Positions 4,199 to 26,311 of a stretch of 64,000 bases of DNA are shown here, one piece after another. The DNA is taken from positions 51,218-115,217 of the forward strand of contig CANGUZ010000003.1 in the NCBI GenBank assembly GCA_947457255.1. Reading direction: 5' to 3'. The notes under the pieces were generated by a model that was not told the DNA's origin, searched no databases, and saw only the letters and a list, made by a program, of their open reading frames with translations. How positions within the stretch are numbered: position 1 is the first letter of the stretch; the number at the start of each line of letters is the position of its first letter. The DNA is from Flavobacteriaceae bacterium (GTDB lineage Bacteria > Bacteroidota > Bacteroidia > Flavobacteriales > Flavobacteriaceae). Both the position numbers and the translations under genes were made by a program.

Positions 4199-4232
4199 AC
4201 TTTTCTTATTAACTCTAATCTTTTCGATTGGG

Positions 4233-4302
4233 TTAGCCCTGAAAGCATTGAAAATCCTACGCTTTTGGGCGTAGATTGTAACGGATAGCAGGAATAGCTC
4301 CT
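4233..4302 (+). ncRNA. Structured intergenic element, resembling the repetitive Flavo-1-type motif of Flavobacteria
   Basis: Nested pairings: AGC(4235-37)/GCT(4297-99), CCTG(4238-41)/CAGG(4289-92), CTACGC(4257-62)/GCGTAG(4269-74); conserved-looking AGCCCTG...GGATAGCAGGAATAGCTCC flanks. Family name from memory; orientation uncertain. Confidence 0.55.
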
Positions 4303-10429: not shown

Positions 10430-10619
10430 AATCGTATGATTAAATTTTGAGGTACTCGACCTCTGTTAATTAAGGGCGCAAATATAGTCTTTTTTTTAAA
10501 GAATACAAACTATTAAATTACTCAATTAATTGATGTTAGTTAAATAATTATATTTTTTATGTTTTTTTTACCTGTTTTTACTTTAAAAAGTTATTTTTGT
10601 GGTATAAATAAAATTACAA

Positions 10620-21731: not shown

Positions 21732-21735
21732 AATT

Positions 21736-21873
21736 ATGGACAAGAGAAAAGTATATTTATATATTGACGAAAGTGGGGATGTGTCTTTTTATGCCAAAAA
21801 GAGTAAACTTGAATTAGAAAAAGCAAGCGAATTCAAAACTGACGGATATAGAAACAAAAAAAGCAATCTTTGA
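21736..21873 (+). pseudogene. Truncated DUF3800-like gene remnant
   Basis: MDKRKVYLYIDESGDVSFYAKKSKLELEKASEFKTDGYRNKKSNL* carries the YIDESGD N-terminal signature of DUF3800 proteins but ends at 45 aa; the frame continues after TGA as LAAPILVTSASADYAISKLPMRIYVHFH*. Confidence 0.6.
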
Positions 21874-22092
21874 TTAGCCGCACCAATACTGGTAACCTCT
21901 GCAAGTGCAGATTATGCTATATCAAAATTGCCTATGCGAATATACGTACATTTTCATTAAAAATATAATATAAAATTATTAAAAAAAGCACTTTTAATTT
22001 TTTAAAAAATAGCTGGTATTATTCAACCTTTCTTTACATTTTTAAAATTTTTAAATTGAATTAAAAATCTTACTTTTGAAAAAAAGCACATA

Positions 22093-22719
22093 ATGTCAAA
22101 ACAACTTATAAATCAATACTACAATCAACGCGATAATTTAAAACGAGTTGGAGTAACTAATGAAATGGCTATTAAACAACCATTTGATAATTTGTTATTG
22201 AATTTAGCTTCGGCTAAACATTATGTATATGCCACCGAAGTTACCATCAAAAACGAAAACGGAAAAAACGTTCGTCCTGACGGGATTTTGATGAACGAAC
22301 TTCGTATTCACAAAGGTTATGTTGAAAGTAAAGACACCAACGATACACTCGACGAAGAAATAAACAAAAAACTCTACAAAGACGGTTACCCAAAAACAAA
22401 TATTATATTTCAAGACAGTATTTATGCTGTTTTGTTTCAAAATGGTTTTGAAATTTCTCGTATCGAAATGGCTGATGCCGATAAGTTGGAGAAAATTCTT
22501 CTGCAATTTATCAATTATAAGCCCGAATATATTGAAAAATTTGATGAAGCTTTACGCAAGTTCAAAGAAGACATTCCAACCATCGTTGATACACTTCGTA
22601 ATACAATTAGCGAAGAATTTAAAACTAACAAAAATTCGTTACGGCTTCGGAAGATTTTTTTGAAATGTGTCAAAAAGAAATCAATCCGCAGATTACAAAA
22701 GAGGATATTCGTGAAATGA
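22093..22719 (+). CDS. N-terminal fragment (PD-(D/E)xK nuclease-like) of a single-chain R-M enzyme, frameshifted
   Basis: 208 aa; RPDGILMNELRIHKGYVESKD matches PD-x(n)-ExK; last ~30 aa are out of frame relative to downstream ORF. Confidence 0.7.
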   Translation: MSKQLINQYYNQRDNLKRVGVTNEMAIKQPFDNLLLNLASAKHYVYATEVTIKNENGKNVRPDGILMNELRIHKGYVESKDTNDTLDEEINKKLYKDGYPKTNIIFQDSIYAVLFQNGFEISRIEMADADKLEKILLQFINYKPEYIEKFDEALRKFKEDIPTIVDTLRNTISEEFKTNKNSLRLRKIFLKCVKKKSIRRLQKRIFVK

Positions 22720-25142
22720 TTATTCAGCATATTTTGACCGAAGATTTGTTTAAATCGGTTTTTGACGAGTCTGATTTTCATCACGAAAACAATATTGCTT
22801 CGCAACTAGAAAATTTGGTAAATACTTTTATGTCACGTTCGATGCGACAAAACCAGTTGGGTGAATTAGGGCATTATTATAAAACTTTGAATGCGCAAGC
22901 CGCTTTAGTTAGTGACCATCACGAAAAACAAAAATTCCTTAAAGTAGTTTACGAAAACTTCTATAAAGTCTATAACCCAAAAGGTGCCGACAAGCTTGGT
23001 GTGGTTTATACACCCAACGAAATTGTGCGTTTTATGGTGCAAAGCACCGATTATTTGTTGCAAAAACATTTCAATAAAGGAATGGCAGACAAAAACGTAC
23101 ACATTCTTGATCCAGCCACAGGAACAGGAACTTTTATTACCGATATTATAGATTATATTCCTTCGCAATATTTAGAACACAAATACAAACATGAAATTTT
23201 TGCCAACGAAGTAGCCATTTTGCCTTACTATGTTGCCAATTTGAATATTGAATACACCTACAAGCAAAAAATGGGTAAGTATTTGGAGTTTCCTAACTCG
23301 TGTTTTGTAGATACATTAGACAATATTGATGGTTTGGCTTACGATGGTAAACAACACAATATGTTTGGTTTTAGTTCTGAAAATGCTGAACGTATTAAAA
23401 GACAAAACGAACAAAAAATTTCAGTTATTATTGGAAATCCACCTTATAATGCCAACCAAGCCAATTTTAATGATTTTAATAAAAATAGAGAATATCAACA
23501 AATCGACAAACGTATTAAAGAAACCTATGTAAAAAATTCTAATGCTCAAAAGTCAAAAGTGTATGATATGTATGCTCGTTTTTATCGTTGGGCAACCGAT
23601 AGAATTGATGAAAATGGTGTAGTTTGTATGGTTACCAATAATTCGTTTGCAAATAGTAAAACGTTTGATGGTTTTAGAAAATGTATACAAGATGAATTTG
23701 ATTTTTGTTATATTATAGATTTAGGTGGTAATGTACGAGAACTTTCAGGTAAAAATGGAATTTCAATTGGTGAAGCGCATACAGTTTTTGGTTTAGGTGC
23801 TATGGTTGGAATAGCAATAATGTTTTTAGTAAAATCAGAAGAAAAACTAAATAACAAATGTCAAATTAAATACATTCATCCTTGCGATATTCGTGCCACA
23901 AGAGTAGAAAAATTTGAATGGTTAAATAGCATAAATAGTTTTGGACAAATAAATTTTGAAGCTATAATTCCCGATAAAAACAACAATTGGATTAATCTTT
24001 CGGATAATGATTTTGAAAGTTTATTGACAATGATTGATAAAGATGCTAAAGCAGGAAAGACTAAAAATTCGATTTTTAAATTTTATTCAAATGGTGTTGC
24101 AACTAATCGTGATGAATGGGTTTATGATTTAGACAAAAGTAATTTAGAGAAAAAAAGCAAGTTTCTTTCTGAAACATACAATAGTTCAATAACTCAACAA
24201 ATAGCTGATGAAAGAATTAAGTGGAGTAGAGATTTGAACAATAAATTGGCACGAAACTTAAAATCAAAATTTGATAAAAAACATATTATAACTGCATTTT
24301 ACAAACCATATTCAAAGAAATACTATTATTCAGAAAAAATATTTAGTGATGTTTTAACTCAAAATCACGTTGATATTTTTTCAAAAGATTTGAAAGGATT
24401 AAATAAATGTATTGGTTGTATTGGAAAAGATACAGAAATTCAATTTTCTACTTTAGCATTTGAAAATATTAATGATTTGAATTCATTAAGTAACGCAGCA
24501 GGTGGAAATAAAACAATGCCTTTATATATTTACGACCAAGAAGGCAATCGTCACGACAACATCACCGATTGGGGTTTAAGTCAGTTTACATCGTATTATC
24601 AAAATACAAACATTACTAAAGAAGACATTTTTTATTATACTTACGCGGTTTTGCACAATCCTGAGTATCGCAAAAAATATGAGTTAAACTTAAAACGAGA
24701 GTTTCCACGTTTGCCATTTTATGACGATTTTTTCAAATGGGCAGCTTGGGGCAAACAACTTATGGAGTTGCATATTGATTATGAAACTGTTACACCGTTT
24801 GAGTTACAAGTTATTGATAACACCAATATAGTAAAAGACAAAAATTACAAACTCAAAGTAAAACTAAAAGCCGATAAACCACAAGGTGTTATTGCTATAG
24901 ACGAACATACTTATTTACACGGCGTTCCCGACACAGCTTGGGCTTACAAACTAGGTAATCGTTCAGCAATAGAATGGGTTCTTGACCAATACAAAGAAAA
25001 AAAATACACCGACAAAACCATTGCCGTAAACTTTAATACTTATCGCTTTGCCGATTATAAACCTCACGTAATTAATTTACTAAAAAGAGTTTGCACAGTT
25101 AGTGTTGAAACTATGAAGATAATTGAGTCGATGAATAAATAG
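22665..25142 (+). CDS. N6-adenine DNA methyltransferase + specificity part of type IIG/ISP-like R-M enzyme
   Basis: 825 aa; KLGVVYTPNEIVRFMV, ILDPATGTGTFITDII (motif I), VIIGNPPYNANQ (motif IV NPPY); no helicase motifs seen. Frame is open upstream of ATG: FVTASEDFFEMCQKEI. Confidence 0.88.
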   Translation: MCQKEINPQITKEDIREMIIQHILTEDLFKSVFDESDFHHENNIASQLENLVNTFMSRSMRQNQLGELGHYYKTLNAQAALVSDHHEKQKFLKVVYENFYKVYNPKGADKLGVVYTPNEIVRFMVQSTDYLLQKHFNKGMADKNVHILDPATGTGTFITDIIDYIPSQYLEHKYKHEIFANEVAILPYYVANLNIEYTYKQKMGKYLEFPNSCFVDTLDNIDGLAYDGKQHNMFGFSSENAERIKRQNEQKISVIIGNPPYNANQANFNDFNKNREYQQIDKRIKETYVKNSNAQKSKVYDMYARFYRWATDRIDENGVVCMVTNNSFANSKTFDGFRKCIQDEFDFCYIIDLGGNVRELSGKNGISIGEAHTVFGLGAMVGIAIMFLVKSEEKLNNKCQIKYIHPCDIRATRVEKFEWLNSINSFGQINFEAIIPDKNNNWINLSDNDFESLLTMIDKDAKAGKTKNSIFKFYSNGVATNRDEWVYDLDKSNLEKKSKFLSETYNSSITQQIADERIKWSRDLNNKLARNLKSKFDKKHIITAFYKPYSKKYYYSEKIFSDVLTQNHVDIFSKDLKGLNKCIGCIGKDTEIQFSTLAFENINDLNSLSNAAGGNKTMPLYIYDQEGNRHDNITDWGLSQFTSYYQNTNITKEDIFYYTYAVLHNPEYRKKYELNLKREFPRLPFYDDFFKWAAWGKQLMELHIDYETVTPFELQVIDNTNIVKDKNYKLKVKLKADKPQGVIAIDEHTYLHGVPDTAWAYKLGNRSAIEWVLDQYKEKKYTDKTIAVNFNTYRFADYKPHVINLLKRVCTVSVETMKIIESMNK

Positions 25143-25145
25143 ATG

Positions 25146-25159
25146 TTGTAGTACTACAA
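25146..25159. promoter_or_regulatory. Perfect 14-bp palindrome TTGTAGTACTACAA just after the R-M stop codon
   Basis: Sequence equals its own reverse complement; role unknown. Confidence 0.4.
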
Positions 25160-25195
25160 GCTAGATCAGGATGTATATTAAAATTTTATACACTA

Positions 25196-25228
25196 TTTGT
25201 AAAAGTTACACAAATGTTCGTACATTTG
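25196..25228 (+). promoter_or_regulatory. Bacteroidota-type promoter for ncRNA candidate
   Basis: TTTG (25196-25199) - 21 nt - TACATTTG (25221-25228); matches TTTG-N19-21-TAnnTTTG. Confidence 0.7.
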
Positions 25229-25233
25229 CACCA

Positions 25234-25292
25234 ACATGCTTACTCCGCTTCTCGTTAGATCAGCGCGCTCAGAGTAAGCTTTTTGCATTTTT
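25234..25292 (+). ncRNA. Candidate abiF-associated structured ncRNA (putative RNA antitoxin)
   Basis: Perfect 8-bp stem GCTTACTC (25238-45)/GAGTAAGC (25272-79); inner CGCT (25246-49)/AGCG (25262-65) hairpin; followed by TTTTTGCATTTTT just before AbiF ATG at 25305; own promoter upstream. Confidence 0.7.
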
Positions 25293-25304
25293 ATACTTTC
25301 GTTA

Positions 25305-26210
25305 ATGAGTTTAGTTCCGTTTAATAAACCGCCATTTAGCTACCTTCAACAACTAGAACAACTACAAGAACGAGGTTTGCAAATTCCTAATATTGAAAAA
25401 GCGTTACATTTATTAGAAAGCATAAGTTACTACAGATTAAGTGGTTATTGGTATCCATTACTTGCTGACAAAGAGAATCATACTTTTAAAGAATCGGCAA
25501 CATTTGATACTGCTTTCAATTTATATTGTTTTGATAGAGAACTTCGTGTTTTAATTATTCAGGAATTAGAAAAAATAGAGGTTTCTATTAGAGCAAAAAT
25601 GATTTACTTATTATCACATCAAAACGGGGCGTTTTGGTATCAAGAAACAAATTTATTTAAAAATCAAATCAGTCATAGTAAAACACTAGTTAGTTTAGAT
25701 AATGAATATAATAGAAGTGACGCCGATTTTATTGTAGCTTTTAGAGGCAAATATTCTAATCCATTACCACCAAGTTGGATGCTACTAGAACTTACCTCTT
25801 TTGGAACATTGTCCTCATTATTTAGTAATTTAAAACCAAGTAGAACCAAACGAAATATTGCAAATTATTTTGGTCTCGACGAAAATACTTTTGCTTCCTG
25901 GATGCATAGTATCGTATACATAAGAAATGTTTGTGCACATCATTCCCGTTTGTGGAATCGTGTTATGAGTATTCAACCTATTAAGCCAATAACTACTAGA
26001 AAAAAGTGGTTAGCTGTTAGTTCAGTTGCTAATAATAAAACCTATTTTATTTTATCAATGATTTTATATTTATTGCAAACGATCAATCCAAATAATTCTT
26101 TTTCTCAAAGATTTAAAATGCTTTTAGAAAAATATCCAAATGTAGATACAAGAGCAATGGGGTTTCCAATTAATTGGAAGGATGAAGCTATTTGGAATAA
26201 ACAATTATAA
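25305..26210 (+). CDS. Abi_2 / AbiF-like abortive infection protein with HEPN RNase motif
   Basis: 301 aa; SYYRLSGYWYPL N-terminal signature and RNVCAHHSRLWNR (R-x4-H HEPN motif) typical of the AbiD/AbiF (Abi_2) family. Confidence 0.92.
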   Translation: MSLVPFNKPPFSYLQQLEQLQERGLQIPNIEKALHLLESISYYRLSGYWYPLLADKENHTFKESATFDTAFNLYCFDRELRVLIIQELEKIEVSIRAKMIYLLSHQNGAFWYQETNLFKNQISHSKTLVSLDNEYNRSDADFIVAFRGKYSNPLPPSWMLLELTSFGTLSSLFSNLKPSRTKRNIANYFGLDENTFASWMHSIVYIRNVCAHHSRLWNRVMSIQPIKPITTRKKWLAVSSVANNKTYFILSMILYLLQTINPNNSFSQRFKMLLEKYPNVDTRAMGFPINWKDEAIWNKQL

Positions 26211-26311
26211 TCAATTCCATAAATACATTCATAATTAAAACTAATTTCAGAAATATATTTCATTACAAATAAAACTGTAAATTTGTTCTACATTTAAATA
26301 AAATAAATATT

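Follow-up and report, generated by a model that had tools for sequence, protein, structure and literature searches.

The closest described relatives of the locus reported here belong to the AbiF family of toxins. In Clostridioides difficile, AbiF is toxic in a manner that depends on the R and H of its catalytic motif, while its RNA, RCd22, binds it directly and neutralises it both in cis and in trans (PMC12373285). The second characterised pair is PbAbiF-AbiFr from a Prevotellaceae bacterium (8VZ6; Zilberzwige-Tal et al. 2025, via PMC12737573 and PMC12373285). PMC12373285 gives its R210/H215 double mutant as inactive, and PMC12737573 describes the ribonucleoprotein structure and the inhibition of a non-specific RNase activity by the RNA. 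Within the PbAbiF RNA, C32 and U38 are inhibitory residues.

We analysed a 64,000-nucleotide stretch of a Flavobacteriaceae contig (hereafter the window), in which a first-pass annotation had proposed a HEPN protein of AbiF type with a structured partner RNA. The RNA and the gene very probably constitute a type III-like RNA-toxin unit of the AbiF kind, and the window thereby adds a Bacteroidota-type toxin-RNA module to this already known family. The type III system ToxIN is similar in that an RNA neutralises an RNase toxin (PMC8860590), but the ToxIN toxin family is unrelated to AbiF and its RNA is a tandem repeat array, whereas the window has a single hairpin, with one R1 match (our covariance model, see below) at the locus. 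Single-hairpin AbiF relatives are nonetheless called type III (PMC12737573). The features of the module are collected in Table 1.

Table 1. Features of the abiF module (window positions).
Feature	Position	Strand	Details and evidence
Predicted flavobacterial promoter	25197-25228	+	TTG 25197-25199, 21-nt spacer, TACATTTG 25221-25228 (TAnnTTTG)
abiF-type RNA (leader, bulged hairpin, T-rich tail)	25229-25293	+	model R1 match 68.8 bits; covariation
Hairpin	25238-25279	+	sequence, fold z = -2.9, covariation
Outer 8-bp stem	25238-25245 with 25272-25279	+	GCTTACTC with GAGTAAGC
Inner stem	25246-25249 with 25262-25265	+	CGCT with AGCG
Loop	25250-25261	+	12 nt
3' bulge	25266-25271	+	6 nt
T-rich tract, probable termination/attenuation site	25280-25293	+	sequence; T-rich tail conserved in homologues
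abiF toxin gene (Abi_2 / HEPN RNase)	25305-26210	+	301 aa; R207 and H212 of the R-x4-H motif

The module lies in an insertion between dnaE and trxA

Among 16 relatives examined, 12 have dnaE and trxA side by side with a short gap. In the window they are separated by about 4.5 kb of defence-type genes (21732-26311), which marks an insertion spot, and the insert comprises the AbiF module along with a type ISP/IIG restriction enzyme. The locus is best read as a module inserted together with the type ISP enzyme, and this neighbour is the sole context for a possible role in abortive infection. Unlike AbiFCd-RCd22, it is not part of any recognised prophage lysis module.

The restriction-modification enzyme is encoded by two overlapping ORFs in different frames (22093-25142), which cover profile residues 6-191 and then 196-1012, indicating a frameshift that is either real or an assembly error. 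Elsewhere in the window, Rfam matched a Flavo-1 RNA (4231-4299, plus strand, 45.6 bits) and an S16-Flavobacteria leader (10439-10470, minus strand, 37.2 bits).

The protein is an AbiF-type HEPN RNase by family, fold and motif

The assignment of the ORF to Abi_2/AbiF was confirmed by several searches. Abi_2 (PF07751) matched residues 35-218 at 195.1 bits (Pfam cut-off 25.6), the AbiD profile of PADLOC matched at 260 bits, and a fold search with an AlphaFold2 model built from 43 homologues (mean pLDDT 95.1) returned 8VZ6 at TM 0.92 and 40% identity, with no further match at E <= 0.001. By sequence search 8VZ6 was also the sole relative with a solved structure (E = 3e-69, 40% identity); this entry contains the PbAbiF dimer with its bound ncRNA (structure title; PMC12737573).

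The one HEPN motif that had been noted, RNVCAH, is indeed the single R-x4-H motif in 301 aa. Its R207 and H212 are invariant across the 43 homologues and align with R210/H215 of PbAbiF, and the window ORF is full length with all invariant residues. The window protein and PbAbiF have fold and catalytic motif in common, and each is preceded by a single upstream ncRNA, but the window AbiF groups with relatives other than PbAbiF (up to 56% identity). Considering that the host assembly is 65% complete, further AbiF copies in this genome are possible.

A conserved, covarying hairpin precedes abiF

An 8-bp stem enclosing a CGCT/AGCG hairpin and followed by a T-rich tract had been described directly upstream of the gene, and this structure stood up to folding and to comparison with homologues. 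When the 109-nt region was folded, only 1 of 200 dinucleotide shuffles did as well or better (z = -2.9), and the stem in the window is fully paired. Across 24 aligned homologous upstream hairpins, the 12 proposed pairs showed standard pairing in 93.8% of cells and 9 of them carried compensatory changes on both sides (43 cells). Not one of 500 shuffles equalled the observed values for pairing, for covariation score, or for the numbers of pairs and cells changed; 13 of the 500 reached the observed value for pair types. Sliding the pairings lowered standard pairs to 25-49%, and RNAalifold recovered the proposed structure minus the 8th outer pair. The comparison of homologues, more than the fold, decides in favour of the hairpin. 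With 89 distinct sequences, all 12 pairs showed compensatory change, in an alignment fitted to the model.

The letters of the loop and the bulge are conserved beyond the stem in the homologue alignment, the 12-nt loop being largely conserved rather than variable. We found the same element upstream of homologues in Flagellimonas, Allomuricauda, Mesonia, Algibacter, Bizionia, Flavobacterium and Parapedobacter, as well as in other genomes across the phylum. The R1 score of the window RNA (Table 1) is not independent, because its sequence belongs to the R1 training set.

The Rfam abiF family, which had been suggested as a search model, did not recover this RNA: RF03085 had no match in the window at the gathering threshold, nor even at E <= 10. 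The RF03085 consensus and the window RNA nevertheless have in common an outer stem, a short inner stem, a loop of about 11-12 nt, a 6-nt 3' bulge and the position before an abiF gene. They differ in the inner stem (CGCU/AGCG in the window RNA, AGC/GCU in RF03085) and in the loop and bulge letters, and the window RNA is without the 1-nt 5' bulge. As two loci (L123 and L166) are matched by both RF03085 and R1, we place the window RNA in that family as a divergent class, homologous to RF03085 but, strictly, not a member of it. This class may already be covered by the Zilberzwige-Tal et al. covariance models, which PMC12804078 names. R1 had matches in 56 of the 396 phylum-sample genomes and RF03085 in only 2 of 297.

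The predicted promoter stands at a fixed distance from the RNA

The predicted promoter ends in TAnnTTTG, the flavobacterial -7 element. In 24 of 28 flavobacterial rows with a paired AbiF, the R1 match is preceded by a TAnnTTTG whose start lies exactly 8 nt ahead of it, and in two more this distance is 9 nt, against a background of 0.00095 per position. No TAnnTTTG element occurs in the 25 nt separating the hairpin from the abiF ATG, and co-transcription with termination or read-through is therefore likely, as for RCd22 (PMC12373285). Sequence points to the T-rich tract as the probable termination site; hairpins whose loops exceed 8 nt escape a simple terminator scan. AbiFCd-RCd22 resembles the window in having a structured RNA and a terminator before abiF and a HEPN R-x4-H toxin, but RCd22 has two abiF motifs and a SigA promoter (PMC12373285), whereas the window has one hairpin and a TAnnTTTG promoter.

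RNA and toxin are inherited together

We looked for AbiF-RNA pairs in a phylum sample of 396 genomes and a genus sample of 248 genomes, the window being in both sets. The genus is probably Flavobacterium, since loci of same-genus genomes coincide, at identical scores, with Flavobacterium records (L106 with L018, L111 with L014). With gene fragments and genes truncated at contig ends set aside, every full-length AbiF of the high-scoring clade had a hairpin shortly upstream (36/36 in the phylum sample, 22/22 in the genus sample). R1 accounted for 58 matches beside AbiF of this clade, fragments included, and the other paired hairpins were RF03085 matches or, at L004, L043 and L051, were recognised by eye. 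The 15 genes of another Abi_2 clade, which scores lower (about 130-157 bits), had no adjoining R1 match among the matches listed. The sampled homologues are related, so that these counts are not independent.

RNA classes, assigned by eye from the RNA letters alone, followed the protein tree with 6 changes, compared with a mean of 30 after shuffling, near-copies included. The window AbiF belongs to a clade of ten (support 98) that all have one RNA class, with an 8-bp stem without 5' bulge and a CGCUCA bulge. Hence the proposal of a structured partner RNA, already favoured by the RNA-bound homologue and the covariation, is also supported by near-universal pairing within the clade and by matching RNA and protein clades.

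These data also bear on whether the hairpin could be purely cis-acting, as an attenuator or leader of abiF transcription that binds no protein. Such a role would fit a hairpin and T-rich tract placed directly 5' of the start codon of a gene with no TAnnTTTG promoter of its own. However, it leaves unexplained why loop and bulge letters are conserved and why RNA class tracks protein clade, and among homologues PbAbiF binds its RNA (PMC12737573) and RCd22 neutralises in trans (PMC12373285). We give it a small chance of being right.

The toxin is lost while the RNA is retained

In the phylum sample, 38 RNA matches scoring 45 bits or more came with AbiF and 26 without it, 4 others had AbiF remnants and 3 lay at contig ends. 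The reverse, a full-length AbiF without RNA, was not seen in the window clade in the samples inspected. At two loci the toxin has been lost and the RNA retained. In G566, of the same genus (L155/L173, C25:1094-1158), a 51-nt stretch retained at the orthologous trxA locus matches the window RNA with 94% identity, and both AbiF and the promoter are gone. The second is in the window's own genome (L086, G000:C9:43736-43809, minus strand), where another abiF-type RNA (66.6 bits) with an intact promoter stands before rsmA without AbiF; G634 and G005, with the same gene order, have AbiF between the RNA and rsmA. RNA without toxin, but no toxin without RNA in the window clade, provides natural evidence for an antitoxin role, as this one-way loss is a prediction of toxin-antitoxin logic.

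We also considered the fate of the AbiF-less RNAs. A tblastn search of 50 AbiF-less loci, counting those at contig edges, recovered AbiF remnants at 7. When stems of solo RNAs were compared with their nearest sampled paired relative, 9 pairs were compensated, 9 were changed on one side but kept and 5 were broken, the true nearest paired relative possibly lying outside the sample. A pairing with another effector was rejected, as the neighbours read vary by locus with no gene in common. It is doubtful, although conceivable, that these RNAs are functional solitary antitoxins kept as a shield against AbiF modules on phages or mobile elements; if they are, a class-II solo RNA with intact promoter coexists with the window's class-I module in the host genome. 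Orphan antitoxins of other toxin-antitoxin types have been described (PMC12654330), and AbiF is unmentioned in that paper.

Two further arrangements were observed among the AbiF-less copies. A near-identical hairpin, ACGCATCTCGTCAGCTCTGCGCACCATGGGGGG, occurs at L105, L142, L146-L149 and L151, recurring among genomes of a single other family of the phylum, sometimes twice per genome, and looks like a dispersed solitary element. L088, on the minus strand of G108:C23 at about 124459-124598, is an AbiF-less tandem of two abiF-type hairpins that differ in class, immediately ahead of a long gene reading like a type I restriction subunit.

The many AbiF-less copies and remnants indicate that such modules often decay, and the restriction enzyme adjoining the window module looks frameshifted, which raises the idea that its RNA and gene are inactive relics. 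Considering the full-length ORF with all invariant residues, the intact promoter and the fully paired stem, this has a very slim probability.

Proposed mechanism

By analogy with the characterised relatives (PMC12373285, PMC12737573), the RNA would restrain the AbiF toxin. Transcription would begin just upstream of the hairpin, and the RNA would adopt the bulged hairpin followed by a U-tract, where most transcripts would probably stop by attenuation as in relatives, giving an RNA of about 55-65 nt. The abiF mRNA would arise by read-through, given that the gap before the ATG lacks its own TAnnTTTG. If AbiF behaves as its relatives do, the RNA would then bind the AbiF homodimer and block the HEPN RNase site, and when RNA supply or binding fails AbiF would cleave cellular RNA and growth would stop. 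Phage takeover is a possible trigger for this release.

That the RNA might instead be a guide and AbiF a target-directed RNase as in Cas13, of which AbiF is a proposed ancestor (PMC12737573), has next to no probability, since the locus has one HEPN R-x4-H in 301 aa and a single conserved hairpin without spacer or repeat-spacer array, its 12-nt loop is mostly conserved, and no Cas13 was among the 50 fold matches listed for the AbiF model.

With RNA restraint of AbiF as our preferred reading, the results supply a covariance model for the abiF-type RNAs of Bacteroidota, which Rfam overlooks. Moreover, as RNA classes track toxin clades, cognate specificity becomes testable, and the loss pattern raises the question of whether RNAs left behind confer immunity against AbiF that arrives from outside.
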